The position numbers were made by a program, and so were the translations under genes. The notes beneath the pieces were generated by a model, which saw only the letters and a program-made list of their open reading frames with translations, was not told the origin of the DNA and did no database searches. 64,000 nucleotides of DNA, from contig NZ_CP091056.1 of the NCBI RefSeq assembly GCF_021535045.1, forward strand, positions 2,232,001 through 2,296,000, read 5' to 3'. Positions 5,941 to 22,168 of this stretch are shown one piece after another; position 1 is the first letter of the stretch; every line of letters begins with the position of its first letter. This stretch comes from Ornithinimicrobium sp. INDO-MA30-4 (lineage in GTDB: Bacteria > Actinomycetota > Actinomycetes > Actinomycetales > Dermatophilaceae).

Positions 5941-5962
5941 AATAGCCCGATTTCGGGCTATT
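5941..5962. promoter_or_regulatory. Perfect inverted repeat AATAGCCCGA / TCGGGCTATT
   Basis: Ten-base perfect arms separated by TT, lying 150 bases upstream of the zinc-ribbon start. Without a T-run on either side it is more like an operator or attenuator than a terminator. Confidence 0.4.
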
Positions 5963-6002
5963 CGTGTGTTCCTTATCGCATGATCGCACACAAGTACGGC
6001 GA

Positions 6003-6060
6003 GTTACATCCGTGTAACTACTACATGTAGAGGCTGGGGCCTCGGCAATTGCCTACATGT
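6003..6060. other. Cluster of short palindromes
   Basis: Contains GTTACA-tccg-TGTAAC (6003-6018), the perfect palindrome CTACATGTAG (6021-6030), and a partial second copy CTACATGT at 6053-6060. The 5794-6148 stretch has no convincing gene. These palindromes and the 5941 hairpin are its only visible structure and may be operator or recombination sites. Confidence 0.35.
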
Positions 6061-6148
6061 TGGGAAATGCCCGACTCTCATTCTAAGATGGGGGCTGCTT
6101 TTAGTCGCAATTGAGTCCCACTCATCACTCCTCGCAACCAGTTCCAAG

Positions 6149-6256
6149 GTGGCCTCGAGAGGGGTGGAGTTGCGGTCGCTCAAAGAGGTGTTAGACACGA
6201 ACACTGCTAGTGGCCAACTGTTTTTCAGTATCGTCGCTAGCATCGCTGAGTTGAGG
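6149..6256 (+). pseudogene. Fragment of a serine recombinase (resolvase)
   Basis: About 36 codons reading RGVELRSLKEVLDTNTASGQLFFSIVASIAEL. These match the core of resolvase/invertase catalytic domains (the RSL...DT.TA.G.LFF...A..AE segment before the long E helix). Both the N-terminal serine region and the C-terminal HTH are gone, and the translation turns to noise at VGSGRRW. It is the remains of a recombinase, related in kind to the intact one at 18879. Confidence 0.7.
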
Positions 6257-6344
6257 GTGGGCTCGGGGCGAAGGTGGTGGGGATACCCAATAGGCGCCCG
6301 ATGCTGCCCACTTCTGGTAGTAATAACCTCCGAAGCTCTACTTA

Positions 6345-6734
6345 CTAGTGGTGTTGTTCGAAAATCTTGTCCTGCTGGCTTTTGGACCTTTGGCCAGCGC
6401 AAGGTAGCGAGCCGACAACATAACAACCAAAGGTGCGAATGGTTAAGTAGATGACGATGGGCAAGCCCAGCAACTGGCCTGACGCCAGAAGCACCGATAC
6501 GCCCTCCATCCCGGCCATGACCGGACGATCTGGACCCGGCGTTGACGCCGTCAGCAGCAAGGCTAGGGGCAGCGCCACCATCCCCTGAAACAAAGTGCAG
6601 TAGGCACCAACCTTCGGTCCCCAGTGCCTCCAAGCCGCTGAGCATGCAAACCATGTCGCGCCGCAGGCCGCGAGAAATCCCCACCCGTGACCGGTCGCCT
6701 CACCCAGCACATGCTGGTACTCCTCTATCCCCAC
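6345..6734 (-). pseudogene. DUF7010-like membrane protein, C-terminally truncated
   Basis: 129 residues with hydrophobic helices around GFLAACGATWFACSAA, KVGAYCTLFQGMVALPLALLL and LLGLPIVIYLTIRTFG. The pattern resembles the actinobacterial DUF7010 family of about 190-residue multi-pass membrane proteins. The tail GSLPCAGQRSKSQQDKIFEQHH is unlike a membrane protein, so the last helices have been replaced. The truncation meets the resolvase fragment region, consistent with a rearrangement breakpoint. Function unknown. Confidence 0.45.
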
Positions 6735-6973
6735 TTGAGCGCCTCCACCCGTCTCGCCGATGAGATCTGATGGTAGCTATCACTTTGCGCCTCGACCGCA
6801 AGATTCGGCACTCCACGCCTCACACCGCGAATCGTCACCGATTGGGGATCCGCTTGCGGCGAATCATTTAATCGCTGAGGTAGCCGTAGTCGGCGACCGC
6901 CGCGGACACATTGCTCATCAGCCGCTCAATGTCAGACCCTCCATGCATGCTGTAGGTGTCCTGAGGAGGGCCT

Positions 6974-8055
6974 ATGTCCGAGAAACAGTACCGCGACAAG
7001 ATCGCGACCATCAAGAAGCAGCAGGGTACGGAGGAGAAGGCGATGGCCAAGCGCGCTCCGCGGCCGCCAAGCATCGTGCCGACGCGTCCAAGGAGCTCGC
7101 CAGGATCACCCCTCGGACGAGTGAGTCGATGGCCCGCACGTATCGACGCAACTCTGACAGTGCCGAGCGTAAAGCCATCGGGGAGGACACCAAGGTCGCC
7201 AAGGCTTCCACCAAGCTAGGGAATCTCGCGAGGGACTTGGCGACCGCTCAAACCAACCTCGACCGGGAGATGCAGGCGGCTATCCGACGCGACGAGACCA
7301 AGCGCAAAGCCGCCAGCAGGGCTGCTGACCAGGCAGACGCCCGGCGGCGCCAGTCTGAGAAAACCCATGCCCGCGAGGTGGCGCGCCTGTCGAGCCCCAC
7401 CGTGCGCTACGTGCACGAGTTGCGGACGGTGCCGGCACCCAAGGCTGAGCAGTTGCGGGTGCTCTACCTCACCGCCAATCCCGAGCAGAACTTGCGCACC
7501 GACGCCGAGGTCCGTGGTGTCCAGGACCAGGTCCGCCGCGCCCTGCATCGGGATCTGATCACGATTGACTACCGCCCAGCAGCCACCGCAGATGACTTGA
7601 TCGCCGGACTTAACGACCTGCGGCCCCACGTCGTGCACTTCTCTGGCCACGCCGGTGACGCTGCTCTACTGTTCGACAACGGCAGCGTGGAAGCCCCAGA
7701 GGGCCGGGACGTGCCATACGATCTTCTTGCCCGTGCTTTGGGCGCTACCGACGTCCCTCCGGTGCTGGTCGTGCTCAACGGTTGCGACACGCTTGCTGGT
7801 GCAGATGTGCTTCTTGAGTCGACCGCAGTGATCGTGGCAACGGCCTCCTCGATCAGCGATTTAGCAGCCTCCGTTTTCGCGGCGAAGTTTTACGCAGCCA
7901 TCGCCGCGGCCCAGACCATCGGTGCCGCAGTGGACCAGGGAAGCGTCTCTGTCGACTTGGCCGGGCTCGATGAGGGCTGGAAACTTGACGTTCTGGCCCG
8001 CACCGACGTTGACACCGCCCAGCGCGTCCTCGTCCAGGTATCCGCCGCTGACTAG
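6974..8055 (+). CDS. Coiled-coil CHAT-domain (caspase-like) protein, one frameshift
   Basis: About 360 residues. The N-terminal 150 are Ala/Lys/Arg-rich coiled coil (AAAKHRADASKELARI, ARTYRRNSDSAERKAI, TKLGNLARDLATAQTNLDRE). A CHAT peptidase domain follows from LRVLYLTANPEQNLRTDAEV. The caspase-type dyad is present: His in VHFSGHAGD (about residue 225) and Cys in VVLNGCDT (about residue 270). The start ATG 6974 has a GGAGG ribosome-binding site. The frame changes near 7051, repaired by one G. CHAT proteases are activated by partner sensors in bacterial conflict and cell-death systems. Here the only close partner is the membrane protein downstream, so the trigger is unknown. Confidence 0.8.
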
Positions 8056-8211
8056 GGCTCGCCGATCGGATGAAGGTGCTCAGCCGCCGTTACGGGGATG
8101 CGACGCACTGACCATTCCCCACATCCGCATGTGGGCCATCTGCGAGTTCTGTTGAACCGTTCCCGTATGAGGATGCCCATATGATGATCCGTCGCTGGCA
8201 CGATAGGGACC

Positions 8212-8679
8212 ATGGGTTCGGAATTGAATGAGGGACCGTCTAGTAAGCGGGGAAACACCGGTGAGTGCCAGGTAGTCACTCGCCGATACAACCGGAATCT
8301 GCTGCTCCTGATGTGGGGACTTTGGGTTGTATCGAGTATTGCTCTCGCGTGGGGCTGGGCCACCCAGAGTGACGATGACCTCTCACTGCTGGGATATGGG
8401 TGGGCCGGCCTAGCTCTGCTTGGTGCCGTCGCCCTGCTCTTCTCAGCCCGCGAACGATTCGTCGTTGACGAGGTTGGTGTCCACCGGCGCGGAGCGCCGA
8501 GCAAAACCGACCCGATCACATGGGCGAAGATAGATCGGATCAGACGCGACTCTACTGACCAGAGAAAGAGTCGCTTGCGGTTCGAACTGAGTACCCTGAT
8601 ACCCAAGGCATCACCACCGCGCATCGACATCGATTGCACCGACGCTCAGTACCAGCAGATCCTCAAATGGCACCCTTAG
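8212..8679 (+). CDS. Two-helix membrane protein with bPH-like domain
   Basis: 155 residues. A hydrophilic N-terminus is followed by two membrane segments (NLLLLMWGLWVVSSIALAWGW and WAGLALLGAVALLFS, residues about 38-84). A cytosolic beta-rich region follows (RERFVVDEVGVHRRG, ITWAKIDRIRRDS, KSRLRFELSTL), with the pattern of bacterial PH-like (DUF2581/bPH) domains. It lies 156 bases after the CHAT gene on the same strand and could be its membrane partner, which is only a guess from position. Confidence 0.55.
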   Translation: MGSELNEGPSSKRGNTGECQVVTRRYNRNLLLLMWGLWVVSSIALAWGWATQSDDDLSLLGYGWAGLALLGAVALLFSARERFVVDEVGVHRRGAPSKTDPITWAKIDRIRRDSTDQRKSRLRFELSTLIPKASPPRIDIDCTDAQYQQILKWHP

Positions 8680-8972
8680 CTGACAGTCTGAGGGCTAGGG
8701 GGATCGAGTGTCTCAGCGCCAGGGGTCGCGTCCCACAAGCCGATCGATGACCGGAACAGGCTGGTTTGCGGGACGAGGTTCAAGCGGTCCGTCCGGCCTC
8801 CTTCTTGTCGAGCACTGGTCAGTTGCGGGTGGCGTCGCGGGTGTGGTGCTGGCTCCGGCGGGGCAGGTGATCGCGGTCCCACCGCGACGGGCCGACGAGC
8901 GCTGCACGCTCAGGTGACCCTCGTCGGTGGCCGGTGGGAGATCTTGCTCCTGACGTGACGTGAGGTTATAGC

Positions 8973-9785
8973 GTGAAGAGCATGACCAGCACCGAACGCC
9001 GACAGTGGGGCATCGGCGACGTCGCCCGACGTACCGGCGTCACCGAGCGCACCCTGCGCTACTACGAGGAGCTCGGCCTCCTGGCTCCGGACCGCGACGC
9101 CGGCGGCCGCCGCCGATACGACGGCGATGCCCTCGACCGGCTCTACCGGGTCCGGCTGCTCCGCGAGCTGGGCACGCCTGTGGCCGACCTCGACCCCGAT
9201 GCAGACGACCTGCTGGCGCTGACCCGCCGGTACCTGGCCGATCTCGACGCCCGGCTGGCCGACCTCGCCAGGGTGCGAGAACGGGTCCGGGCCGTCGAAG
9301 ACCGACTCCTGGACGGTGACCGCCCCGGCGACGAGGCCCTGCTCGACCTGCTCTCGGGCCTGACGGCCGATGAGCCCGCGCTGACCCGGCGGATCACGCT
9401 GCTCGTGTACCGCGACATCGCGGCGGGGCACGCCTACCTCGTCGACGTCCTGGGTCTGGCCCCCGGGCCGATCGGCTACGACGGCGACCGGGCGGTACAC
9501 GGCGAGGTCCACGCCGGCGACGGCGTCGTATGGCTGCACCGGGAGGCTCCCGAGCACCGGATGGTCTCGCCGCTGACCACCGGCACGGTCACCGCCTCGC
9601 TCGCCGTCCTCGTCGACGACGTCGACGCCCACCACGCCCGCGTGGCCGCGACCGGCGCCGCGATCGACTACGAGCCGACCGACATGCCCTACGGCGTCCG
9701 CGAGTACAGCGTGCGCGACACCGAGGGCCACCTCTGGTCGTTCCAGACACCGCTCACCGAGCTCGACGAACAGGAGACCCCATGA
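8973..9785 (+). CDS. MerR-family regulator fused to a VOC domain
   Basis: 270 residues. The N-terminal MerR winged helix shows WGIGDVARRTGVTERTLRYYEELGLL...RRRYDGDALDRLYRV, and the dimerisation coiled coil runs to about residue 150. The C-terminal half is a vicinal-oxygen-chelate fold (GHAYLVDVLGL, VHAGDGVVWLHREAPEH, GVREYSVRDTEGHLWSFQTP), with the ligand-site Glu/His replaced or shifted relative to enzymes. It is probably a one-component sensor in which the VOC domain binds a drug or metabolite. GTG 8973 has GAGG seven bases upstream; ATG 8982 is an alternative. From about 8935 to 10170 GC content jumps well above the neighbours, suggesting recent transfer. It overlaps the next gene by ATGA. 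Confidence 0.85.
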   Translation: MKSMTSTERRQWGIGDVARRTGVTERTLRYYEELGLLAPDRDAGGRRRYDGDALDRLYRVRLLRELGTPVADLDPDADDLLALTRRYLADLDARLADLARVRERVRAVEDRLLDGDRPGDEALLDLLSGLTADEPALTRRITLLVYRDIAAGHAYLVDVLGLAPGPIGYDGDRAVHGEVHAGDGVVWLHREAPEHRMVSPLTTGTVTASLAVLVDDVDAHHARVAATGAAIDYEPTDMPYGVREYSVRDTEGHLWSFQTPLTELDEQETP

Positions 9786-10170
9786 CCCATCTGACTCCCT
9801 ACATCTGCGTCGCCGACGCCCGAGCCGCCATCGAGTGGTACATCGCCGCGCTGGGCGCCGAGGTCACCTACGAGCCGATCGTCATGGACGACGGTCGGGT
9901 CGGCCACTGCGAGCTGGCGATCGGCGAGGCGCACTGGATGATGTCCGACGAGTTCGACTCGGCTGGGGTAGCCGCCCCGACCCGGCGCGCGGGTCGGCGG
10001 TGTCGCTGCACCTCACGGTCACCGACGTCGACGCGACCGCCGCGCGCGTTGTCGCGACCGGGACATCGATGGCGCGCGGCCCCGAGGACAGTCCGCCCGC
10101 CGGGCGGGTGGCTGTCTTCGTCGACCCGTTCGGTCACCGCTGGTTCCTGAACCAGCCAGCCGAGAACTGA
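9782..10170 (+). CDS. VOC-family protein (bleomycin-resistance/glyoxalase type), one frameshift
   Basis: A 129-residue VOC protein: MTHLTPYICVADARAAIEWYIAALGAEV, DDGRVGHCELAIGEAHWMMSDEF, then after a frame change near 9980 (one C missing in a CCCC run) GSAVSLHLTVTDVDATAARVVATG and AVFVDPFGHRWFLNQP. This is the PhnB/glyoxalase-like group that binds or modifies small toxic compounds. Its ATG overlaps the MerR-VOC stop codon, so the pair is co-translated and the regulator probably controls it. The very GC-rich codon use is the same as in the upstream gene. Confidence 0.8.
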
Positions 10171-10540
10171 TTCAGAGCCGCGCAGCCAGGCGAGTCAGTC
10201 CCCGGTCCAGTGCGTCGAGACACACCCGTCTCCCAGAGACCACGAGCAAGGACGTTTAGGCCGACGGGTCGCGAGTCAGCAACGAGACATCGTCCTCCTG
10301 CGCTGGCTCCGCCGCCAACCGCGGCCGTGCGCAGCTCCGTGCCGTCCCGTGACCGATCCCCTGCGGGACGATTCGCTGGGCTTCGGATCCCTGCGGTCAG
10401 CGACCCTGAGTTAGCTCCGGTGGGCGTTCCCGCCTGGGACTGTGTGTGGAGTGCGCACGAGTGGATCTGCGAGAGTTCGGTGCAGAAGCGCTTTGAGGGT
10501 GGTCTTCGCAGCGGTCGGTTTCTGGATGGAGGGATGTGTC
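10171..10540. other. Intergenic stretch without recognisable gene
   Basis: 370 bases between the VOC gene and the pterin dehydratase gene. GC content falls back from the island level. Only the ribosome-binding site GGAGGG just before ATG 10541 is recognisable; I see no convincing coding pattern, RNA or repeat. Confidence 0.5.
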
Positions 10541-11211
10541 ATGAGTGATCAGTCGACGTTGAGCGGGGTGCAGGTGCGCGGCGCGGGTATCGATGACTGG
10601 CGACAGATCCTGGGCCGTATCAAGGCTCGGTTCTGTACAGGCGATTTCGCCACCGGACTGGCGCTGGTGAACAAGATCGGTGATGCCGCAGCGTCTGCCG
10701 ATCACCACCCGGACATCACCCTCACCTACACCGACGTGATCGTGTCGCTCTTCTCGCGCGACGTGGGAGGTATTACTGCTCGCGACGTCGATCTGGCTCG
10801 ACGGATCAGCAGCTACGCCGCCGAGCTGGGGGTTTTGGCTGACGTGCCGGGTTTGACCCAGCTCGAGGTTGGCCTCGACACCGCTAGGGGAGAGCATCTC
10901 GCTCCGTTCTATGCGGCTCTTCTCGGCGCAGAGATCCAGCGTGGCGAACCGGTCGACCCCAGCGGACAGGTTCCCACGGTGTGGTGGCAGGACACCCAGG
11001 GGGTCGACGAGGCTTGGCGCTGCCCGAGCAGTCCTTCGAGCAGCGCTGGCACTTCGATGTCTGGGTCAGCCACGACGAGGGCGAGTCTCGCCTTCGCGCT
11101 GTCCTGGACGCCGGTGGACGCCTGGTCAGCGATGCAGGGGCACCTGGCTACTGGGTGGTCGAAGACGCCGACGGCAATCGCTCCTGCATCTGTACGTCCT
11201 CTGGACGCTGA
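10541..11211 (+). CDS. 4a-hydroxytetrahydrobiopterin dehydratase fused to a VOC domain, one frameshift
   Basis: Residues 1-105 are a pterin-4a-carbinolamine dehydratase (PCD): DDWRQILGRIKARFCTGDF, ADHHPDITLTYTDVIVSLFS with the conserved histidine pair, and RDVGGITARDVDLARRIS. After a linker a VOC-like domain follows (LGAEIQRGEPVDPSGQVPTVWWQDT, then in another frame LALPEQSFEQRWHFDVWVSHDEGESRL, APGYWVVEDADGNRSCICT). One indel near 11005 in a G run joins the frames. GGAGGG sits eight bases before the ATG. Such PCD-VOC fusions exist in actinobacteria. The role is pterin recycling or a pterin-linked activity, since no aromatic hydroxylase is nearby. Confidence 0.8.
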
Positions 11212-11457
11212 CGCCATTGCTCACGCGCCGACCCGAAACCCTTGAGCACGCCATCGCCACGACGGGATCGTCACGCTTGACCGGTGCAGGATGCTGACGC
11301 GGTCATGATTCGGGGCGGCCTGACCGCTTGTTGGTATCGAGTCCGGCGTCGCCGTACCGGTCGCGGCGCCTTGGCAGACCGACCGGGTTGGTCGTCGTAT
11401 GGCGATCCCTCATCGGCGAGGACGGCATGCGGGAGGCAACCGATTTGGCGAGTGCCC

Positions 11458-11937
11458 TCACTCGTTCGATGTGCGTACGAGTTGGCCGCCTTTGCAGGTA
11501 GGCACCTCGGTGAAGCCGAGCTTGGCTGGAAGTGAAGATGGAACCAGAGCGCGGCTTCCCGGATCGAGCACAGCCACAGCCCCCTGTTGATCTACGTACC
11601 TGACTGACTCTCGCAAAAGAAACCGCGCGATGTTGTCGTCGTGCTTGCTCGGTTTGACGAACAACCTCCCGATCACCAACAAAGGTTGCGCCTGTCCGCC
11701 CAGCTGCGCGGCGAGGTCACGCACCTAAGCGACGTCCGGTGGCTCATAAATCTGCACGTGACCAACGACGTTCCTTGTGGGTGCAGCGCTCACCGGCGCT
11801 TGGTCGAACACCCACGAGACCTCGGCGTCCGTCTCCTGCAGCCAGTGCAGCGGCTCTAAACTCTCGACTGTATCGTCGAGTTCGCTGATGATTTCGCAAA
11901 GGCGCACTAGGTCTTGATTCCTGCGGTCACGAATCAT
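11458..11937 (-). pseudogene. GNAT acetyltransferase with in-frame amber codon
   Basis: From ATG 11937 the translation MIRDRRNQDLVRLCEIISELDD...WVFDQAPVSAAPTRNVVGHVQIYEPPDVA reaches TAG at 11725-11727. It then continues in the same frame with VRDLAAQLGGQAQPLLVIGRLFVKPSKHDDNIARFLLRESV...AVLDPGSRALVPSSLPAKLGF. Together these form a typical N-acetyltransferase: beta 4-5 with the acetyl-CoA loop partly altered (normally Q/RxxGxG/A, here KPSKHDDNIA), then the last helix and strand. Unlike most breaks here this is a point nonsense change, not a homopolymer indel. The gene looks truly inactivated, unless the stop is a base-call error. Confidence 0.65.
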
Positions 11938-12079
11938 GGCTGAGGACACTACCGGTCTAGGGCACCCAGTTCGACGGCGCAGAGCTGCCAGCCCCGGTGC
12001 GGGATACCCCATGACGACGGGTTCAGGCCTCGAAGATCGAGGCCTTGACTCGTCCATCGGCTGAACCGAGAGTTGGGTC

Positions 12080-12502
12080 ATGACCGTCGACCGTTCCGAT
12101 CTCACGTTGCCAGAAGCAGACCGCCGTGAACTCATTGGTTGGACGACCGATTGCGTGAGGCGCCTCTTGCCGATCTTTAAAAGCGCGGCACCAAGTGACA
12201 CGCGCTTGCTGGAAGCACTTGAAGGTGCCGGTGCGTTTGCCCGACAAGAGTTGAGCGTCGGGCCCATGCGGAAGTTCGCGTTCGGTTGCCACGCCGCCGC
12301 CCGCGAGGTCGATGACTCGGCCGCCGAAGCCGTGGCTAGAGCATGCGGTCAAGCGGTCGCGGTCGCTCACATGGCTGGGCACAGCCGAGAAGTCGCACGG
12401 TATACGCGCAAGGCGCTGGGGGCCGACGCGAGATCTGAGCTTGATTGGCAGCGCGCCAATGTGCCTGCGCGTTTCACAACGTACGTCTATAGCGACGCCT
12501 AG
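12080..12502 (+). CDS. Putative immunity protein (Imm-5-like)
   Basis: 140 residues, all alpha: DRRELIGWTTDCVRRLLPIFKSAAPSDTRLLEALEGAGAFARQELSVGPMRKFAFGCHAAAREV...AEAVARACGQAVAVAHMAGHSREVARYTRKAL. The layout of Trp-x-x-Asp/Cys, APxDxRxxEAL and AAxAAHxAxHA segments matches the Imm-5 family of polymorphic-toxin immunity proteins. There it would bind and neutralise a cognate nuclease-type toxin tip. No toxin gene with a matching tip is visible next to it, so it is an orphan immunity gene 800 bases ahead of the RHS array. The ORF is intact. Confidence 0.6.
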   Translation: MTVDRSDLTLPEADRRELIGWTTDCVRRLLPIFKSAAPSDTRLLEALEGAGAFARQELSVGPMRKFAFGCHAAAREVDDSAAEAVARACGQAVAVAHMAGHSREVARYTRKALGADARSELDWQRANVPARFTTYVYSDA

Positions 12503-12586
12503 GTCCATGGTCAGTACACCTAGGCCAGAAGCGTCCGCAGAGGGATCGCCGACCGGGAGGCCGTAACTGAAGAACCAGGGCGGGCT

Positions 12587-12808
12587 TCAGTTACTTTTGT
12601 TGCGCGGATGGTTCTTGGCAGCGCGTTCGTTCCCCCGCTTGTAGTTGCCGGTCTGTCTGGCCATCAGCTCTTGCGGGTCTACGCCTTCAACATCGGTGAG
12701 GAATCGCTTCGCGGCGGTGCCCCGCAGTGTCGTCGCGAGCCGTCCGTGGTGACTGATGAGGACGTCGTCTCCCACGACCCGGTAGGTGAAGCCGTGAGGT
12801 GTGACCAT
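12587..12808 (-). CDS. Conserved small actinobacterial protein
   Basis: 73 residues: FTYRVVGDDVLISHHGRLATTLRGTAAKRFLTDVEGVDPQELMARQTGNYKRGNERAAKNHPRNK. The YRV..DGDV.I.HHGR.A..LRG..A..FL.DV pattern and the basic GNYKRGNER tail recur in uncharacterised actinobacterial proteins of about 70 residues. A beta-rich head followed by a basic tail suggests nucleic-acid contact; function unknown. Start GTG 12796 or ATG 12808 are both possible; I keep the longer one. Confidence 0.65.
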   Translation of the reverse strand: MVTPHGFTYRVVGDDVLISHHGRLATTLRGTAAKRFLTDVEGVDPQELMARQTGNYKRGNERAAKNHPRNKSN

Positions 12809-13229
12809 GGTCAGCAGTCTGGCACCCCAGCCGCCCTAATGCGCGGATTCCAGAGCCGGCGTCAGGAGGACGAGACCGGAAGGTGGAGCGACTCACCGCA
12901 AGGGGAACCCCAAACGACGAACGCGGACGTCAGGGGCTCGTTCTGCTTCGATGCGGAGCTCGTCGTCCCGTAGCACCTGTCCGGTGAAGATTCCCGCAGA
13001 GGTGCCTCAATCGGAGCAGCGCACCACGAGCAAGAGACCGCGTTGATCCATAACTCTGTGTTCGACGATGAGCAGGACGTCTAGCCCGTTGCTCGGTGAC
13101 GGCCGTTTACGGAGCAGACTGGTCGTCTGGGGTAGGGGAGTGGGGGTTTGTGCTCGCCTGTTGGTCCGAAATATTGACTCCTAACTAAATCGGTCCGATA
13201 CTCGCGGGAAGAGTATTTTCGGGTCACAG
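12809..13229. other. Intergenic stretch before the RHS array
   Basis: About 420 bases without a convincing gene. The only visible structure is ATACTC-gcgggaa-GAGTAT at 13198-13216, an inverted repeat upstream of the resolvase stub. Confidence 0.45.
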
Positions 13230-13255
13230 CATGGTCGATAGGCATGGTCAATAGG
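13230..13255 (+). repeat. Tandem direct repeat, 13-base unit x2
   Basis: CATGGTCGATAGG followed at once by CATGGTCAATAGG (one mismatch), ending eight bases before ATG 13264. Together with the inverted repeat at 13198 it may be a recombinase operator or the remnant of a res site. Confidence 0.4.
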
Positions 13256-13263
13256 GGAGTGGG

Positions 13264-13313
13264 ATGGTTGAATACGGATACGCCAGAGTGTCCACGGCGG
13301 ATCCGTCGGTCGT
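13264..13313 (+). pseudogene. N-terminal stub of a serine recombinase
   Basis: ATG 13264 reads MVEYGYARVSTADPSV. This is the exact opening of resolvase/invertase catalytic domains (Y.RVS with the nucleophile serine). It is cut after 16 codons where RHS repeat sequence begins (GTTTGAACGC at 13311). A GGGGAG ribosome-binding site precedes it. The stub marks the left breakpoint of the RHS array. Confidence 0.75.
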
Positions 13314-13970
13314 TTGAACGCACCCAAATCGGTGGCACCACGACCACTAACTCGGTCCTGGGTGTCATGTCGTCCACTGACGCCACGGGTACCCGCAACT
13401 ATGTGTCCGCGCTCCTGATGGGCGTGTTTTAGGTGAGGAACGAGCTAACGGGGACTGGCGGTACTACCTCACCGACTACCTCGGATCCGTCATCGGTGGC
13501 ACCGACCAGAATGGGTCACGCACCGAGTCCTACGGGTACGGCGCCTACGGCGAGTACCAATACGGCACTGGTGGTGGCACCGACCTCATCCACTGGCGCT
13601 ACACCGGCGCCTGGCTCGACGGTAACTCCGTCACCGGTAACGGGTTCTACAAAATGGGTCTGCGCTACTACGACGATCAAACCGGGCGGTGGGGCCAAAC
13701 CGACCCGCTCGAGCGCGTCATCAACCCCACCCAACCCGCCGAAGCCCAACCGTATAACTACTCCGGCTGCAACCCCACCAACCAAACAGACCCCACCGGA
13801 GCAATATCGCAGGGTTGTGGACAAGGAATAAGCGGCGGGTTGACGGCCGGGATTGCTGTCGGATTGGTTTTGGTCCTTTTGCCGGTGCAGCGACAGCGGC
13901 GGTAGCCGGCCTGTACGGCTGTGGTGCCAATCTGATCCTGCAAGGATCGACTGGCTACTCTTTTCCTTAA
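13311..13970 (+). pseudogene. RHS C-terminal cassette 1 (frameshifted)
   Basis: This is the shortest repeat copy. It starts inside the repeat right after the resolvase stub and has a two-base GT insertion near 13402 that breaks the frame (NYVSALLMGVF). The core resumes through GLRYYDDQTGRWGQTDPLERV and DPTGA. The tip starts AISQGCGQGISGGLTAGIAVGLVLV; adding one T in the TTTT run near 13880 lets it continue FAGAATAAVAGLYGCGANL...STGYSFP to TAA 13970, about 59 residues with GCG near each end. It has no start codon of its own. Cassettes 1 and 2 still share DNA into the tip as far as GGTTGTGGA. Confidence 0.65.
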
Positions 13971-13992
13971 CAATTTGACGAGGAGAACGGTA

Positions 13993-14382
13993 ATGATACG
14001 GGAGCATCCGAAATGGGGCATACTTTTGTTTCTCGTCGGCGGTTTGGCGCCGATTCTGCTGGCAGAATGGGATTTCCTCGGAGCAGCACTAAAAGCACTG
14101 TCGACATTATTTATGCTTGCCGGCGGCGTATGGTTACTGATTGGACATAGAGGTGTGTCGAGTGAAAAGATAGCTCGCGAAAAAAACAGGACGTTGACTG
14201 TATTCTTCATTCCGGCCTGTATCGTTTTTTCTCTCGGTATAGTTTCTATTACCTTAGGTGTGCTGACACTCAATGATGGCCGCGATAATTATGCTGGTGC
14301 TATTGGTTCGGCCTTGATCGTTTTAGCACTTGCCTACGCAGTGTACGGTGCGCCAACTCCAGAGTTCTCCTCTGGCGAATAG
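13993..14382 (+). CDS. Four-helix membrane protein, candidate immunity for tip 1
   Basis: 129 residues, start ATG 13993 with GAGGAG seven bases upstream (longer in-frame starts lack a site). There are four membrane helices: WGILLFLVGGLAPILL, LSTLFMLAGGVWLLI, VFFIPACIVFSLGIVSI and AGAIGSALIVLALAYAVYG, in a hairpin-like 2+2 arrangement with a basic loop SSEKIAREKNRT. It starts 22 bases after the end of tip 1, and codon use is clearly AT-richer than in the repeat, as is common for toxin-immunity modules. No family recognised. The immunity role is inferred from position and from the same arrangement in the other cassettes. Confidence 0.55.
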   Translation: MIREHPKWGILLFLVGGLAPILLAEWDFLGAALKALSTLFMLAGGVWLLIGHRGVSSEKIAREKNRTLTVFFIPACIVFSLGIVSITLGVLTLNDGRDNYAGAIGSALIVLALAYAVYGAPTPEFSSGE

Positions 14383-14675
14383 GCGGTAATGACGGAGAAG
14401 GATTTGCTTTGCACCACAAGCGCCCGCACGGAGAGGGGCCTTCTTCATGTAACGGTCCCCAAGCCTGTGTTGACGGCACTGGCGAGTCCTTCACCGCGTC
14501 GCGCAATACTCCAGCCGGGTGAGCATGCTGAATAGTCTGACTTCGTACATTACTGCTGTTGGGGGTTAGTTGTCTGTTTGGGCCCAGAGGCGGTGGGCTG
14601 CCCCCATAATTTAGGGCCAGTTGTTGTGTGAGTTGTCTTGTCGCCCGGTTCTCGGGCAGGAAGACTGGTCTCATC

Positions 14676-14852
14676 ATGACGAAGAAGAACATCAAAAGAC
14701 ACACTCCGGAGCAGGTCGTGCGCAAGCTGGGGCTGGCTGATCGGATGCTGGGCGACGGCTCAGACGTCGCAGCGGTGTGCCGTGAGTTGGGGGTGGCGGA
14801 GCAAACGTATTACCGGTGGCGTAACCAGTACGGCGGCTTGAAAGCCGACGTA
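14676..14852 (+). mobile_element. IS3-family transposase orfA fragment
   Basis: ATG 14676 reads KRHTPEQVVRKLGLADRMLGDG...VCRELGVAEQTYYRWRNQYGGLKADV. This is the HTH half of IS3-family (IS407-like) OrfA proteins, ending in the typical YYRWRNQYGG. After 59 codons it is replaced by RHS repeat sequence. The rest of orfA, orfB and both terminal repeats are not recognisable, so only a fragment is left. Insertion or recombination of this element may have created the breakpoint of cassette 2. Confidence 0.8.
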
Positions 14853-14855
14853 CTG

Positions 14856-15604
14856 GTTACAACGACCGTAACCAGGCCACCAGCCTGGAACACCGGTACG
14901 GCCAGAACGCACAAACGGCTACCTATGACGGCACCTCCCAGTTTGAACGCACCCAAATCGGTGGCACCACGACCACTAACTCAGTCCTGGGTGTCATGTC
15001 GTCCACCGACACCACGGGCACCCGCAACTACGTCCGCGCCCCCGATGGGCGCGTCTTAGGTGAGGAACGAGCTAACGGGGACTGGCGGTACTACCTCACC
15101 GACCACCTCGGATCCGTCATCGGTGGCACCGACCAGAATGGGTCACGCACCGAGTCCTACGGGTACGGCGCCTACGGCGAGTACCAATACGGCACTGGTG
15201 GTGGCACCGACCTCATCCACTGGCGCTACACCGGCGCCTGGCTCGACGGTAACTCCGTCACCGGTAACGGGTTCTACAAAATGGGTCTGCGCTACTACGA
15301 CGATCAAACCGGGCGGTGGGGCCAAACCGACCCGCTCGAGCGCGTCATCAACCCCACCCAACCCGCCGAAGCCCAACCGTATAACTACTCCGGCTGCAAC
15401 CCCACCAACCAAACAGACCCCACCGGAGCAATATCGCAGGGTTGTGGACTCGCTATTGCTGGCGCTGGTCTCGTGGCATTTGGTTTTGGTTTAGGGTTAG
15501 CGGCTCTGATAGCAGCGCCGACGTTATCTGGAGCCCTTTTATGGCTAGGCATGGACGTGGCTTCAGTACCAGGCGCAGTCGACAAATTGAAAAGCGAATG
15601 CTGA
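14856..15604 (+). CDS. RHS C-terminal cassette 2 with hydrophobic tip
   Basis: The repeat starts abruptly at GTTACAACGACCG behind the IS fragment, in a different frame from it, and runs open to the stop: YNDRNQATSLEHRYGQ, GTRNYVRAPDGRVLGEERANG, YGAYGEYQYGTGGGTDL, RYYDDQTGRWGQTDPLERV, YNYSGCNPTNQTDPTGA. The unique 58-residue tip begins AISQGCGLAIAGAGLVAFGFG and ends AVDKLKSEC. It is Gly/Ala-rich, strongly hydrophobic for about 40 residues, and carries one Cys near each end. No nuclease, deaminase or protease motif is visible; membrane insertion is the likeliest action. It has no start codon of its own, so it would need recombination onto a full-length RHS gene to be secreted. Confidence 0.7.
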
Positions 15605-15625
15605 CCTGTTCAGGAAGTAGGAAAC

Positions 15626-15832
15626 GTGGACGAATTTGATGCGGAGCCGGCGAAAGAGCCCGTGAACCATGGTCTCTTGTTATTGCGCATGGCGATCGGG
15701 GCCATTCCGATGCTCTATTTCTTGCAATCCGGACCAAAAGCGGTAGGAGTGATTGTAGCAATAGTCCTGGGGGTCGGCTATGTATCGGTGACTATTCACT
15801 GGGTTCTTTGGAAAACGGGTCGTGTCGGATAG
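15626..15832 (+). CDS. Two-helix membrane protein, candidate immunity for tip 2
   Basis: 68 residues from GTG 15626, with an AGGAA ribosome-binding site. An acidic N-terminus (DEFDAEPAKEP) is followed by two membrane helices (LLLLRMAIGAIPMLYFL and AVGVIVAIVLGVGYVSVTI). It lies 21 bases after tip 2. It has no sequence similarity that I can see to the immunity candidates of the other cassettes, only the same size class and topology. Confidence 0.5.
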   Translation: MDEFDAEPAKEPVNHGLLLLRMAIGAIPMLYFLQSGPKAVGVIVAIVLGVGYVSVTIHWVLWKTGRVG

Positions 15833-15935
15833 TGCGACAGACATTCGGACTTGTTGACGCTAGGTCAGTTGGTTTGGCAGCGACTGGGTTCGGCACAATT
15901 TCCTGCGTTGTCTCTAACGGTGATATTTTTGAGAA

Positions 15936-16906
15936 TAACTCCTACACCTACGACGCTAACCCAACAGGAGCGCGTGGGAGTACGGGACACGAGACACCGT
16001 GAACCAGTACACCGCGGAATACAACACTGCCGATCAAATGACGTCAATGACTGGCCCGCAAGGCACAACAGACTTCACTTATGACGAGGTGGGCAACATG
16101 ACCGGTGACACTGCTGGGTCGGTGATCAGTTACAACGACCGTAACCAGGCCACCAGCCTGGAACACCGCTACGGCCAAAGCGCACAAACGGCTACCTATG
16201 ACTGCAGCAGCCAGTTTGAACGCACCCAAATCGGTGGCACCACGACCACTAACTCGGTCCTGGGTGTCATGTCGTCCACTGACGCCACGGGCACCCGCAA
16301 CTATGTCCGCGCCCCCGATGGGCGCGTCTTAGGTGAGGAACGAGCTAACGGGGACTGGCGGTACTACCTCACCGACCACCTCGGATCCGTCATCGGTGGC
16401 ACCGACCAAACCGGGCAGCGCACCGAGTCCTACGGGTACGGCGCCTACGGCGAATACCAATACGGCACTGGTGGTGGCACCGACCTCATCCACTGGCGCT
16501 ACACCGGCGCCTGGCTCGACGGTGACTCCGTCACCGGCAACGGGTTCTACAAAATCGGTCTGCGCTACTACGACGATCAAACCGGGCGGTGGGGCCAAAC
16601 CGACCCCCTCGAGCGCGTCAGCAACCCCACCCAACCCGCCGAAGCCCAACCGTATAACTACTCCGGCTGCAACCCCACCAACCAAACCGACCCCACCGGA
16701 GCCTGTAGCGCCGAGGTCGCATCGGCAGGGTTTGCTCTCGACGCACTCGCGCTTGGTATGACAGGCATCTCCGCTTTTCTGGGCACCTCTACCGGTGCAC
16801 TATTGAGCTTGGGCCTGACAACCCTGTCGGATGGGCAGCAGCCGCCGCAGGTTTCGCCGTAGCCGGACTCGCGATCACAGGGTATTGCCTTGCCACTGGC
16901 TACTAG
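15936..16906 (+). CDS. RHS C-terminal cassette 3 with hydrophobic tip (frameshifted)
   Basis: The longest upstream extension: a TYDAN-type RHS repeat near 15945, then (other frame) VNQYTAEYNTADQMTSMTGPQGTTDFTYDEVGNMTGD, then the common core to DPTGA. The tip begins ACSAEVASAGFALDALALGM. As written it stops at 16862, but one extra C near 16817 continues it as PDNPVGWAAAAAGFAVAGLAITGYCLATGY to TAG 16906. This gives 68 residues with Cys at positions 2 and 63, matching the other tips. In the corrected frame it overlaps the next small gene by 17 bases. Confidence 0.65.
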
Positions 16907-17069
16907 AAAAGAGACTCTAGCCAGTCTGCTGTTCCTACTACTCGGCGTGGGAGGGCTCCTCGGAGCGATAATGAATGGCAGTCCGTGGTTCCTTGTGCCC
17001 TTGGGCGTAGGTATGTTCGTGCCCTTGGCGATTCAGTCTCGCGTCCGGCGACGGAGTACGGGGACTTGA
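16890..17069 (+). CDS. Two-helix membrane protein, candidate immunity for tip 3
   Basis: 59 residues from TTG 16890 (LPLATRKETLASLLFLLLGVGGLLGAIM, then SPWFLVPLGVGMFVPLAI, then the basic tail QSRVRRRSTGT). It has two membrane helices and the same size as the other immunity candidates. The TTG start is a guess; a GTG further in would shorten helix 1. It follows tip 3 directly, as in the sister cassettes. Confidence 0.4.
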   Translation: MPLATRKETLASLLFLLLGVGGLLGAIMNGSPWFLVPLGVGMFVPLAIQSRVRRRSTGT

Positions 17070-17230
17070 GTGTCTATGTATCGCACCCCACGACCTAGCG
17101 CGGGGCCCAACACAACTCCCGTAAGAAGTCAGATTCCGAGACACATGATGTTAGTACGAGCGCTCGGCGTCTAAAATTTGTTCGGTTACGGTGAAACACA
17201 TCAGTCCTTCTGACTAGTTCGATCGTTAGG

Positions 17231-18075
17231 TGACGTCAATGACCGGCCCGCAAGGCACAACAGACTTCACTTATGACGAGGTGGGCAACATGACCGGTGA
17301 CACTGCTGGGTCGGTGATCAGTTACAACGACCGTAACCAGGCCACGAGCCTGGAACACCGCTACGGCCAAAGCGCACAAACGGCTACCTATGACTGCAGC
17401 AGCCAGTTTGAACGCACCCAAATCGGTGGCACCACGACCACTAACTCGGTCCTGGGTGTCATGTCGTCCACTGACGCCACGGGCACCCGCAACTATGTCC
17501 GCGCCCCTGATGGGCGTGTTTTAGGTGAGGAACGAGCTAACGGGGACTGGCGGTACTACCTCACCGACCACCCCGGATCCGTCATCGGTGGCACCGACCA
17601 AACCGGGCAGCGCACCGAGTCCTACGGGTACGGCGCCTACGGCGAGTACCAATACGGCACTGGTGGTGGCACCGACCTCATCCACTGGCGCTACACCGGC
17701 GCCTGGCTCGACGGTAACTCCGTCACCGGTAACGGGTTCTACAAAATCGGTCTGCGCTACTACGACGATCAAACCGGGCGGTGGGGCCAAACCGACCCGC
17801 TCGAGCGCGTCATCAACCCCACCCAACCCGCCGAAGCCCAACCGTATAACTACTCCGGCTGCAACCCCACCAACCAAACCGACCCCACCGGCGCCATGTC
17901 GTGTGTCGGGGCATGGGGGTCAATGGGTCTATCGGTAGTAGGTTTGGGAGTTTCGTGGTTCGGTGCAGCCACTACCGCTTGGACGGGAGTTGGCCTGGCT
18001 GTAGGAGTGGCGGGTCACTACGCCGCCTTAGGAGCAATCGCATACTCAGCTAATGGAATTTCGGAAAGTTGCTGA
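17231..18075 (+). CDS. RHS C-terminal cassette 4 with hydrophobic tip
   Basis: Homology to cassette 3 begins at TGACGTCAATGAC (17231) and the frame stays open to 18075. The common core is nearly identical to copy 3 (one change: DHPGSV for DHLGSV). The 60-residue tip begins AMSCVGAWGSMGLSVVGLGV and ends YSANGISESC. It again has paired cysteines (positions 4 and 60), many Gly spaced three or four apart, and no charged residue before the last ten positions. No enzymatic motif is visible. ATG 17239 is the first in-frame ATG but has no ribosome-binding site. Confidence 0.7.
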
Positions 18076-18099
18076 AACGGAGAGAGAGGTGCTTCAAAT

Positions 18100-18282
18100 A
18101 TGTCCAGAGAAAGTTTGTCAAAAGGCGCTACAGTAGTCTCGCTTGCCTTACCAGCAATAGTCTTTTTCTACTTTGCTTTTAACGGCAAAAACAATGCTGG
18201 CAGAGTAGGGGCTGCCCTTTTGGGAATAACGTGTCTAGGGTTCTTATTCTTGGCCGTTAGGAATTTAAAGTCTTCCGAATAG
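18100..18282 (+). CDS. Two-helix membrane protein, candidate immunity for tip 4
   Basis: 60 residues with a good AGAGAGAGG ribosome-binding site. The N-terminus MSRESLSKGATVV precedes helix 1 (SLALPAIVFFYFAF), a basic loop (NGKNNAGR) and helix 2 (VGAALLGITCLGFLFLAV). It starts 24 bases after tip 4. The low GC content contrasts with the repeat. Confidence 0.5.
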   Translation: MSRESLSKGATVVSLALPAIVFFYFAFNGKNNAGRVGAALLGITCLGFLFLAVRNLKSSE

Positions 18283-18301
18283 AATAGCAATTGTCCGTGC
18301 A

Positions 18302-18532
18302 TTGGTGACTGGGAACTGCTTGGTCTTGGCCGACGAGTCCACCGGAGCGCTTAGTTGTGGAGTGAGCCTGTTGGGCGCGGGGGTGAGCGGTTTCACGCTC
18401 GAAGTTGCCATTCTTGGGGCAGGTGCGACCATTGCTTCCGGTGGTACGTTGGCACTCGGAGCAGCCGCCGTGATCGGAGCCAGTTATGTGGGATTTGTGA
18501 TCTCGGGCGCAAGTGCCGTGGAGGCCTGCTAA
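18302..18532 (+). CDS. Bare RHS-type tip 5
   Basis: Only ESTGA (from DPTGA) remains of the RHS core, reached from TTG/GTG at 18302-18305 through the unrelated stretch VTGNCLVLAD. The 61-residue tip ALSCGVSLLGAGVSGFTLEVAI... ends ISGASAVEAC. It has Cys at positions 4 and 61, a Gly/Ala-rich core and alternating Gly patterns, so it belongs with tips 1-4. It is the terminal, most reduced cassette. Confidence 0.6.
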   Translation: MVTGNCLVLADESTGALSCGVSLLGAGVSGFTLEVAILGAGATIASGGTLALGAAAVIGASYVGFVISGASAVEAC

Positions 18533-18534
18533 CG

Positions 18535-18705
18535 GTGCTTCCGCGTAGGACAGCCCTGCTCCTTGTAGCCCTTTTCTTAATGCAGATAGTTTTCGCGGCC
18601 ATCTTCTTCTGGCAAGAAAGGCGGACTGAGTATCTAGTGTGGATGATAGTAGCCATCGGGGGTTGTCTGGCGGCGGCGATGATGGTTGCGCGCCAGAGAG
18701 ACTAA
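18535..18705 (+). CDS. Two-helix membrane protein, candidate immunity for tip 5
   Basis: 56 residues from GTG 18535, two bases after the tip 5 stop codon, so translationally coupled. Helix 1 is ALLLVALFLMQIVFAAIFFW, followed by a charged loop QERRTEY and helix 2 LVWMIVAIGGCLAAAMMV, with a basic end ARQRD. Same design as the other candidates. Confidence 0.5.
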   Translation: MLPRRTALLLVALFLMQIVFAAIFFWQERRTEYLVWMIVAIGGCLAAAMMVARQRD

Positions 18706-18731
18706 AAAGCCTGTGTCGTTTAACTAAAGGT

Positions 18732-18877
18732 TGATGAGACAGTCGGCCGCCTCCGGCCGGACGTGAGTTGACGTGCTCGTGATGACTCGCTCCGGTGTCT
18801 CATGAAGTTGCCTCAACACGAAGTGACTCGGTTCTTCCCCTTCTAGGGTTTTATGAGGCACTATAGGCCGATGAGGC
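18732..18877. other. Res-like cluster of ATGAGRCA half-sites upstream of resolvase
   Basis: Related short motifs recur: TGATGAGACA (18732-18741), its inverse TGTCTCATGA (18796-18805), TTGCCTCA (18808-18815), TATGAGGCA (18852-18860) and CGATGAGGC (18869-18877). The first two form an inverted pair, and the last two are direct copies touching the resolvase start. Serine resolvases bind such multiple half-sites in their res region. A GC-rich hairpin (CGGCCG-cct-CCGGCCG near 18744) lies between the first two sites and may end transcription of the RHS array. Confidence 0.5.
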
Positions 18878-18878
18878 T

Positions 18879-19484
18879 TTGGGGTACACGCGAGTCAGCA
18901 CCGCCGCCCAGGACGCGCAACTGCAACTCGATGCTCTAGCTGGCGTAGGAGTGGAACCCCGTGACGTGTTCTGCGATGTGACGTCGGGCAGCAAAAGCGC
19001 GGCGCAACGCCCCGGAATGCGCCGCCTCCTGGATTACGCCACTGAGGGCGACACAGTCGTCGTTTGGCGAGTCGACCGGCTCGGCAGGTCTTTGATCGAT
19101 GTGTTGAACACCGTGAACCTCCTCCGTGAGTCCGGCATCGAGCTTCGTTCCGTGCAGGACGGCATCGACCCCGCCACGACGAGTGGTCGGCTGATGTTAA
19201 ACATGCTGGCGACGTTGGCCGAGTACGAGCGAGAGTTGATCACTGAACGGGTCAACGCGGGCATTGCCGCTGCCCGAGCCACGGGGACTGTCTTCGGCCG
19301 GCCCCCTGTTGATCCAGGCATGATCGCCCAGAAACTCGACATCGTTAACGATGCTCGCGCTAAAGGTCGCTCCGCTGAAGACGCCGCGAAACTCGTGGGC
19401 TGGTCTCGGGCCACGTTCTACCGTCACCAACACAACACCGAAACCCAAGCCGCCGCGACGCCGCACGAGCGGTCAGCGCACTAG
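18879..19484 (+). CDS. Serine recombinase (resolvase/invertase family)
   Basis: About 201 residues. The catalytic domain opens GYTRVSTAAQDAQLQLDAL (the serine of RVST is the nucleophile), followed by DVTSGSKSAAQRPGMRRLLDYATEGDTVVVWRVDRLGRS (with the catalytic Arg pair), RSVQDGIDPATTSGRLMLNMLATLAEYEREL and a C-terminal HTH (GRSAEDAAKLVGWSRATFYRH). The codon given as start is TTG. ATG 18871 would be in frame if one T were missing from the TTT run, giving MRLLGYTRVST. It is complete and probably active, and the res-like motifs directly upstream suit auto-regulation. It flanks the RHS array on the right. Confidence 0.9.
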   Translation: MGYTRVSTAAQDAQLQLDALAGVGVEPRDVFCDVTSGSKSAAQRPGMRRLLDYATEGDTVVVWRVDRLGRSLIDVLNTVNLLRESGIELRSVQDGIDPATTSGRLMLNMLATLAEYERELITERVNAGIAAARATGTVFGRPPVDPGMIAQKLDIVNDARAKGRSAEDAAKLVGWSRATFYRHQHNTETQAAATPHERSAH

Positions 19485-19504
19485 CGATCCCCGGTGTTCC
19501 TTTA

Positions 19505-19722
19505 GGGTCTAGACCCGTGTACGGGTTTCTGGGGTCTACCCCAGAACAACACAATCCAGATGTGTGCATCTAGGGACCTTCCTAAACGCACACTGCTCAT
19601 GCTCGGTCAGCAATCAGATCGTCTTCTCAGCCGACGTCCTCCAGAACAGGGTCTAGGCCCCAGATGCACGTTACCCAGGGTGGTCGGGCATTTCGTAACA
19701 GATCCGGGGGGCGGGTGTACCC
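19505..19722. repeat. Cluster of GGGTCTA-CCC palindromes
   Basis: The 19485-19840 stretch has no gene but several related palindromes: GGGTCTAGACCC (19505-19516), CCCGT-gt-ACGGG (19514-19525), CTGGGG-tcta-CCCCAG (19529-19544), GGGTCTAGGCCCC (19649-19661) and GGGTGTACCC (19713-19722). Three are next to a CCAGAA(C/G) motif. A repeated operator, a recombination site or hairpins in a leader RNA of the downstream restriction gene are all possible. Confidence 0.5.
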
Positions 19723-19840
19723 CAGAAGCACAGGTCTACATGGGTGCACGTAAGAATTCTTTTGGACACAGATCGCACGATCGTCTTCGTCCAAACGCCA
19801 ACGTTTTAGCGACAACTGCCACCGAATCTTCCATTCCGAC

Positions 19841-21942
19841 ATGCGCTTGATCCCAGCGGGTTCTAGCAGCGGATGGGGCAGGTCCTCTTATGCCGTTGTG
19901 CCTGTAGTTTCGCAAACGTCACCCTCGCTGAAGGAGTTAGTTGTGGCCAATTCACAGGAGGTCCGCCTGCCTGCCGTGATCACCGAGCGGCTCCTCGAGA
20001 TCCCGGACTACCAACGTCCCTACGCTTGGCGGGAAAAACAGCTCTCCGACCTTTGGGAAGACCTCGACCTCCTCGGCCCGCATAAGAGTCACTATGCGGG
20101 GACGTTGGTGCTGCGCGACATCTCGGTCAACAATGCGCCGAGGACGTCTATGGCCGACGACGGAACCAACTGGAGACACTGTGAGGTCGTCGACGGGCAG
20201 CAGCGCCTCACCACATGCCTCCTGCTACTCGACCGCATCCGACGCCGACTGGACATCCTGGCTAAGGCTGGCGTCGAGCACGCTGCAGCCATGTCCACGA
20301 TGCTCCACGGCAAGTACGGCATGGTCAGTATTGACAACGCCATGCGCCCTCGTCTGCGGTTGGGGGCTGGTCTGAATAACTACTGGGTCAACACCTCGCT
20401 CGGCACGGGCCACCACGTGGGACCAGCGCTCATTTCCGGTGAGGAGCGGCTGCGTGACGCCGCGGCCTTCTTTGACGCTCGTCTCGCCACCCTGGTGACA
20501 TCGGAACCGAACGACGAGTTCCTCCGCCTCAAAGACTTGCAGAGTCGGGTGACCGCGGGTCTGGGGTTTCTGGTCTATGAGGTGCAGTCCCTAGCCGAGG
20601 TTGGCGTCATCTTTGAGACGTTGAACGAACGTGGCCGCGGCCTTAGTGATCTGGAGAAGACTAAGAATTATCTGCTTTATCTGGCCCGCACCATGAGCGA
20701 TGGCAGAGCCGAACAGCTTGCCGAACTCATTAACGATGCTTGGGCCGAGATATTCACCAACATCGCGGGGCAAGCACGTGACGCTGACGATCAACTGCTG
20801 CGTGCGCACTGGTTGGCGACCCAGAACCCGGACCGACGGGGTGGAAGCAGATCGCCTCGGTAAAGGTAGCATTCGACCGCAGTAACTACATTTCCGGAGC
20901 GACCCGGCTTGTGCCCCGTGAGAAGGCAGCCCAGGATCAGGACGAGGCATGGAACCGGCTCTCGGCCGACCTCAAGTCTTACGTCACTGGCCTACGCAAG
21001 TGCTCTTTCTTTCTCAAGGAGATGTTCGATGGAACGGCTAACCTCGACAACTTCACTTCCCACCAAGACGAAGCACGGCATGCTAGTGCAGCACTCCAAC
21101 GATCAGGTGTCGTAGCGCCATATCGACCACTGTTGTTTGCCGCCAGACTGAGGCACCCGAATGACGGTGAGTTCTACGCCCAACTCGTCGCCCTGTGCGA
21201 GAAATACTCGGCTCGCGTCTTTGTCATCCGACAGCGCCGCCTGAACGCGGGGGAGGCTCGATTGCTGCGACTTGCGCACGACCTTTACTCCACTCCTGAA
21301 GGCGAAGATAAACGAGAGTGTATCCTACGTGAGGTCGCCGCGGTTATTTGGCGCTACGCATCAGACAATGAGGTCACAGCAACCCTTGAGTCAATGGATG
21401 AGAACTGGTACGCGCGAAGGGGTCACAAGTACTTCTTGTACGAATACGAACTCAGCATTCGTCAGCATGATCAGGAATTACCCCCGCTGTCGCGCTTCAC
21501 TACTGGCGCAGGTGAGCAGCGGACAACGGAGCACATTCTGCCGCGGCACCCAGCACCCGAGGATAAGTGCTGGTGGGACCATTTCACGGAGGAGCAGCAC
21601 GCTGCCCTGGTGAACTCACTGGGCAACCTAGTCCTTACCTATGACAACTCCGCATACGGCCGAAAGTGCTTTACTGATAAGCGTGGCCAGGCCGCCGGTC
21701 CTGGCGTCGACGTCAAGAAGTGCTATGCCCAGGCCGAGCTGAGGCAAGAGCAAAGACTCGCCCACCACGACCAGTGGACGCCTGAAGTGATCAACAAACG
21801 CCAGCTTGTCTTCGCGTCTTGGGCACTGGAACGGTGGTCTATCGAATCTCCGTCTGTAGCTGAGCTTACCGAGGACGTGGAAATAGAGGCCGAGGACGAC
21901 AGTGCGGTGGACCTTGACCAGAACGACCTGGGAGACCCGTGA
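19841..21942 (+). CDS. DUF262-DUF1524 protein, GmrSD-like type IV restriction enzyme (one frameshift)
   Basis: About 700 residues. The N-terminal DUF262 (ParB/Srx-like NTPase fold) has LEIPDYQRPYAWREKQLSDLWEDL, EVVDGQQRLTT with the DGQQR nucleotide-site signature, and FETLNERGRGLSDLEKTKNYLL. The C-terminal DUF1524 carries an HNH-type nuclease: TEHILPRHP, a Trp-rich WWDHF spacer and NSLGNLVLTYDNSAYGRKCFTDKR. This is the layout of GmrSD and related enzymes that cut modified phage DNA. One indel near 20838 joins the frames through WKQIASVKVAFDRSNYISGATRL. Start uncertain: ATG 19841, GTG 19898 or GTG 19943. It stands alone next to a resolvase and the RHS array, an accessory (defence) setting. Confidence 0.85.
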
Positions 21943-22168
21943 CGCCGATCCTCACTCGTTGACCAGGCTGGGGTTCTAAGACGATCTTCTGTAAGACACG
22001 TAGTCGAGACAATCTGACGGGTTGATCCGGGCGCTACACACAGACCGACTCGCAGAGGTCTAACTTTCTTACCAATGTGTAGGTAAATAAGATAAGGATC
22101 TCAACCTGGCCACGGTCAGGAGAACAGGCCGGACTGTCTAGCCACTGGCCAGATGTTTGGGCACCTGC

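Follow-up and report, generated by a model that had tools for sequence, protein, structure and literature searches.

Probably displaced RHS tip cassettes with small membrane-protein partners, and no full-length parent gene found, in Ornithinimicrobium sp. INDO-MA30-4

How does a row of RHS toxin tips, each with a small membrane-protein gene behind it, come to stand in a genome in which no complete RHS gene is found? The question is raised by a stretch of 64,000 nucleotides from Ornithinimicrobium sp. INDO-MA30-4 (RefSeq assembly GCF_021535045.1, contig NZ_CP091056.1, positions 2,232,001 to 2,296,000 of the forward strand), called the window below, in which the row occupies positions 13312 to 18705. 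The answer that we favour, at a probability of about two in three (0.68), is that the row is an array of C-terminal cassettes, tip plus immunity gene, that were displaced from an RHS (YD-repeat) toxin of the cell surface, in a lineage that lost the full-length gene or never had it.

Four copies of the end of an RHS core lie in direct repeat, starting at 13312, about 14856, about 15917 and 17231, and a profile search places all four above the cut-off of TIGR03696 (Rhs_assc_core). All end in TDPTGA, and divergence sets in directly afterwards. A small hydrophobic open reading frame (ORF) follows each of the five tips, with 129, 68, 59, 60 and 56 residues for tips 1 to 5 and, by a simple window count, 4, 2, 1, 2 and 2 hydrophobic spans. 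This anatomy, including a fifth bare tip with its own gene, had been described in a sequence-only reading of the stretch and is borne out. The identical 500-base core of that reading has to be revised: the common part of 487–489 bp is near-identical, with 10–19 base differences between copies, and the copies are partial cores of unequal length with different start points. Its unrelated tips do diverge after DPTG, except that the first seven residues of tips 1 and 2 are the same.

All features of the array are on the plus strand. Core 1 (13312–13800, with a frame break) leads into tip 1 (13801–13902, read to its first stop and frame-broken) and putative immunity gene 1 (13993–14382), with GAGGAG upstream by eye. 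A truncated OrfA of the IS3 type of insertion sequence (IS), recognised by its HTH_Tnp_1 domain (14676–14846), lies directly 5' of core 2 (14856–15427), which is followed by the hydrophobic, 58-residue tip 2 (15428–15604) and putative immunity gene 2 (15626–15832). Core 3 (15917–16700) precedes tip 3 (16701–16862, again read to its first stop and frame-broken) and putative immunity gene 3 (16890–17069), and core 4 (17231–17892) precedes the 60-residue tip 4 (17893–18075) and putative immunity gene 4 (18100–18282). Tip 5 (18335–18532) has no core except for ESTGA, by eye a trace of the DPTG boundary, and stands before putative immunity gene 5 (18535–18705). The G+C content is 60.6–62.6% in the cores, 50–53% in cassettes 1, 2 and 4, and 60 and 58% in cassettes 3 and 5. 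The ratio of nonsynonymous to synonymous change (dN/dS) is 0.04–0.22 in eight comparisons of core copies, as if they had diverged mostly while protein-coding, which would fit a parent lost not long ago, or cores captured from parent-bearing lineages.

The search for such a parent covered the window genome, where a search with the core itself gave none either, and Ornithinimicrobium laminariae Arc0846-15, a congener found by a core search of genome contigs. In the window genome TIGR03696 exceeds its cut-off nowhere except in the four array copies (one sub-threshold match lies elsewhere, at C1:135162-135251, E 0.017), RHS_repeat matches are confined to the array, and DUF6531, the RHS N-terminal plug, gives no match at E 0.1. 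The same holds for O. laminariae, whose genome is 99% complete: its array alone is matched by RHS_repeat and, at E 1e-6, by TIGR03696, and DUF6531 is found nowhere. The positive control, a third member of the genus (G007), is matched by all three profiles. A complete shell with its N-terminal plug is thus absent from the matches in the window genome, and no full-length rhs gene that shares the core was found upstream of the array or in O. laminariae. This agrees with the sequence-only reading as to modules without a parent gene, and speaks against its resident full-length RHS protein with a switchable active tip.

The nearest long gene with this type of core is in G007, where the core is 77% identical and the gene is split by an IS3-type element; the first part of this gene contains CBM96 and DUF6531. 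The next closest core among the sequences searched, 56% identical, is on a Janibacter melonis plasmid, in an uninterrupted gene (1437 residues as annotated) with DUF6531 and RHS repeats, the start of which was read by eye as an export signal. This gene ends in a 62-residue tip, and a 56-residue ORF with two spans begins 10 nt on. A second small hydrophobic ORF (66 residues, L147:5668-5868) lies 3' of the RHS gene and its presumed immunity gene and is possibly a spare immunity gene.

The comparison of the two Ornithinimicrobium species shows that the content of the locus changes. In O. laminariae the array lies between the same neighbours and has two tandem cores, both open, with another set of tips, and identity is 85–94% in six blocks that align in and around the locus. 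The core after putative immunity gene 2 is orthologous in both species by position and sequence (core 3 here, core B in O. laminariae), and it carries tip 3 here and another tip there, the alignment stopping at DPTG. Cassette 2 is different: tip 2 and its immunity gene differ at 1 of 405 sites, against 72 of 1442 (5%) in the rest of the alignment (29/572 in core 2, 42/784 in core 3 and 1/84 in the spacer; hypergeometric 2e-7). The single difference changes one codon of the tip, and the 68 codons of the immunity gene have none. It appears that species exchanged some of the units in recent times, and the sequence-only reading is supported in this respect by both the different tips at an orthologous core and the shared cassettes. 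The two tandem, syntenic cores in an independent assembly also speak against repeat misassembly as the origin of the array.

The history of the cores themselves is mixed, with support values of 54 to 89 in the core tree; core 2 differs from O. laminariae core A at 22 positions, and core A from core B at 29. Tip 4 is 61% identical over 54 residues to the bare tip of the O. laminariae array, their presumed immunity partners having no match at E 0.01. Tip 5 was sought in 195 other genomes and matched none of them at E 0.001, but it reaches 38% over 39 residues with the Janibacter tip in a small comparison, and a search for tip 2 in plasmids found none. About 8.7 kb upstream of the array (4640–13311) did not align to the O. 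laminariae stretches compared, and the region from 4640 to 22160 accordingly looks variable. Directly 3' of the array is a serine recombinase of the resolvase/invertase type (PF00239, 18879–19484, plus strand), also outside the parts that could be aligned to the locus of O. laminariae. As a shuffler of the cassettes it was set aside on this ground and on the absence from the array of the end motifs described next, no wider search for recombination sites having been made.

A further trace of exchange lies away from the array. A block of 1306 bp that holds two cassettes of the O. laminariae array recurs, with only 4 differences, in the window genome, where it stands about 57 kb away from the array. 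The matching site in O. laminariae is unoccupied and continuous except for one base, and the flanks of the block are 93% identical between the species over 769 bases and 96% over 1929 bases. The block ends in GTGTAA...TTACAC. Its tip, without an RHS core, forms an in-frame fusion with the greater part of a small membrane protein (L012:8487-8897, minus strand; G000:C1 2188486-2188896), 136 residues long in all, where the O. laminariae copy of the host gene is uninterrupted and encodes 84.

What the tips might do was approached through a survey of 186 genomes of the family, 63 of which have TIGR03696 at E 1e-6. The 79 core matches examined comprise 72 from fetched loci (down to E 1.8e-10, with two omitted and a few lower ones from fetched loci added), four from the window, two from O. 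laminariae and one from G007. A tip was called short and hydrophobic if it had fewer than 100 residues and a grand average of hydropathy above 0.3. Among the 79 tips, 55 are longer than 100 residues and 24 shorter, 19 of the latter being hydrophobic, with 34–91 residues. No more than 150 nt after the tip, an ORF with a hydrophobic span begins in 18/19 of the short hydrophobic tips, 9/55 of the long and 2/5 of the other short ones (Fisher 1e-9, on rows that are not independent; 12/13 without the two arrays). The taxonomic class was sampled more thinly, by 40 matches taken at about every fourth of those listed; three of their tips are of this kind, all three with such an ORF, against 5/37 for the long tips. 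Summed over the 19 tips, GxxxGxxxG occurs 31 times, compared with 9.0 ± 3.3 after shuffling, and 0/500 shuffles reach the observed count. Cysteines stand both near the start (first 12 residues) and near the end (last 20) of 10/19 short hydrophobic and 3/55 long tips. Net charge is negative in 17/19 of these tips, and neutral or positive in 9/9 of the presumed immunity proteins compared.

Such tips also occur on long genes, with open frames of 1114–1611 residues in genomes G055, G048, G106 and G032, and several cores per stretch are found in G031, G032, G106, G107, G108 and G185. The tips are not hydrophobic in the arrays of G032 C26, G185, G106 C1, G107 C24 and G031; tips of the hydrophobic class number two in G107 C2 and one of two in G108 C28. 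Pfam, run on the ORFs with tips 2–5, on five immunity-side ORFs and on relatives, matched RHS_repeat and DUF6531 or CBM96 in shell parts and otherwise gave weak matches below cut-off; NCBIfam had none over cut-off for tips 2, 4 and 5, three relatives' tips and immunity proteins 1, 2, 4 and 5; PADLOC gave a chance-level match only for the same proteins; and a PDB sequence search with copy 4 returned two salivary gland proteins only. In composition the tips are what a membrane-inserting peptide could be expected to look like, and their partner genes agree with a role as small immunity proteins of the membrane; judged by sequence, the tips probably insert into membranes.

In the mechanism that we propose, the short glycine-zipper tip would be cut from the shell just after DPTG by an aspartate pair of the core, the freed tip would insert into the target membrane, and the tiny membrane protein of the downstream gene would block its own tip. 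Two aspartates stand in 4/4 core copies at places that by eye resemble those of the pair in Tse5, 29 residues apart here and 23 there; D1141 and D1164 of Tse5 cut four residues after the second one (PMC10684867). With the aspartates so placed, a cut after DPTGA would free intact tips of 57–66 residues in both arrays, and in a monoderm the target membrane may be reachable without a translocation machine. Cassettes would be gained or replaced by recombination with DNA of other strains or species, most likely via the flanking cores, a route and a direction that we infer. Since no shell was found in the window genome, the tips should be silent: with no shell gene there would be no export signal, and only the immunity genes could act.

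The state of the assembly limits what can be made of the broken frames of core 1, tip 1 and tip 3. The window genome, in two contigs, is 74.86% complete by markers, and it is indel-noisy: when 19 non-RHS ORFs of O. laminariae were matched here (at least 150 residues, pieces above 70% identity in the window or upstream DNA, some possibly spurious), 10 were spread over at least two frames, 3 had an in-frame stop only and 6 were clean. Two adjacent ORFs at 19841–21942, in different frames, together look like one DUF262-type gene, consistent with this noise. The frame breaks in the array can for this reason be counted neither as pseudogene mutations nor against them, and the idea that they mark pseudogenes was dropped.

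Several observations weigh against displaced cassettes traded through their cores. The parent could sit in the DNA missing from the window genome. The identity of tip 2 and its immunity gene begins just 13 bases before the tip, with no long core tract alongside, unless later conversion among core copies replaced it, so the alignment does not demonstrate the recombination through the core that the sequence-only reading proposed. Within 200 bases of either end of the off-site block, identity is 97.0 and 98.5%, higher than in the longer flanks. The cut-offs of the tip class were chosen after the window tips had been seen, its 19 members include the two near-identical copies of tip 2 and two frame-broken tips, and one of the 13 outside the two arrays (L136) has no transmembrane ORF. 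Tse5 and the other solved Rhs toxins are absent from the PDB matches of copy 4.

The same evidence has to be set against other explanations. A silent reservoir, in which core recombination with a resident full-length RHS gene changes the active tip, would suit the near-identical core copies and the evidence reported for recombination between main and orphan genes in Salmonella (PMC3967940), and incompleteness of the window genome leaves room for the gene; with no shell found there or in the nearly complete O. laminariae, we consider it very improbable. Decaying debris of no present role would account for the frame breaks and for the IS fragment inside the array, and displaced Serratia tips are partly degenerate (PMC2935791), yet 10 of 19 neighbouring ORFs of this assembly are split likewise, the O. 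laminariae copies are open and the cassettes are near-identical between species, which makes this explanation improbable.

The cassettes might instead be mobile units moved by a recombinase or transposase in trans, not by homologous recombination. If the plus strand of the O. laminariae locus is read over its 18 kb, GTGTAA and TTACAC each occur once, at the ends of the block, GC stands on both sides of the block in the window genome, and the empty site is almost seamless. However, it is a single case, no recombinase ORF is seen in the block, both motifs are absent from 12401–19600 of the window and no duplication flanks the block in the O. laminariae array, so that we see little prospect for this account. 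More room has to be given, though still doubtfully, to a bank of immunity genes, the array being kept for protection against RHS-bearing neighbours or plasmids with the toxins as passengers. All five immunity ORFs are open, four starting within 30 nt of the preceding stop, the second is unchanged between species, cassettes were shared recently among genomes without a shell, and a tip of this class is found on a long RHS gene of the Janibacter plasmid; but tip 2 is kept as well as its partner (1 change against 0), which gives no sign of selection on immunity alone. Displacement from a surface toxin remains the reading that we prefer. A wider version, that parentless RHS tip/immunity islands are stable in monoderms, where species without a shell trade membrane-toxin cassettes with one another, and keep them as a store of immunity to neighbours and plasmids armed with RHS, by at least one route independent of the core (the 1306-bp block), seems to us unlikely.

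The value of the species pair is that three things can be read from it: tips that differ at a single core, cassettes that are near-identical although their surroundings have diverged, and a block of two cassettes at a mapped site. Little published work was found on RHS toxins of these bacteria. The data also point to short glycine-zipper RHS tips as a class of their own, partnered by tiny transmembrane proteins, and if immunity does maintain arrays without delivery, these would be a simple test bed for the retention of orphan immunity genes.

Arrays of displaced rhs tips are known from Enterobacteriaceae (Jackson 2009, PMC2935791), and they are alike in their direct repeats of near-identical core of varying length, their dissimilar tips and, less clearly, the lower G+C of some tips. 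In those arrays a full-length rhs gene of identical core type precedes the fragments, whereas here no shell was found, the host is actinobacterial and the tips are of one physical class. The orphan Rhs toxin/immunity module of Salmonella (Koskiniemi 2014, PMC3967940) is likewise an Rhs fragment with an immunity gene and without start or export signals; it differs in that here there is no main rhs gene to recombine with and five cassettes stand in a row. Among membrane-active toxins, pore-forming Tse5 resembles the present case, as proposed here, in having a membrane-inserting tip behind an RHS core with an aspartate pair, although its tip has 149 residues, against 34–91 in the class described above, and is delivered by a type VI secretion system (PMC10684867). 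BiTLP, a YD-shell protein of a Bacillus, has a hydrophobic, membrane-damaging C-terminal domain, and immunity genes lie 3' of almost all teneurin-like proteins (PMC13018210); the likeness to these bacterial proteins is by description only, and arrays are not described in the parts of that paper covered.

Glycine zippers recur in the Cdz bacteriocins (PMC5380434), which also have a small transmembrane immunity protein, and in TelE (PMC10434224) and EsxX (PMC12744356); all use other delivery systems, and the parts covered of these three papers do not describe a relation to RHS cores. The W-TIP domain (Zhang 2012, PMC3482391) is a small, hydrophobic, predicted pore toxin with RHS among its listed repeats, but it is confined to Proteobacteria, and its Wx[ST]IP motif is, by eye, absent from the 19 tips. 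Among the literature matches listed there is no account of short glycine-zipper RHS tips in Actinomycetota. Displaced tip arrays, orphan tips that recombine with a main gene and membrane-active tips behind YD shells are thus already known, and what the present locus adds to them is a parent missing in two species, a measured near-identity of cassettes, an off-site block and a short glycine-zipper class of tips.

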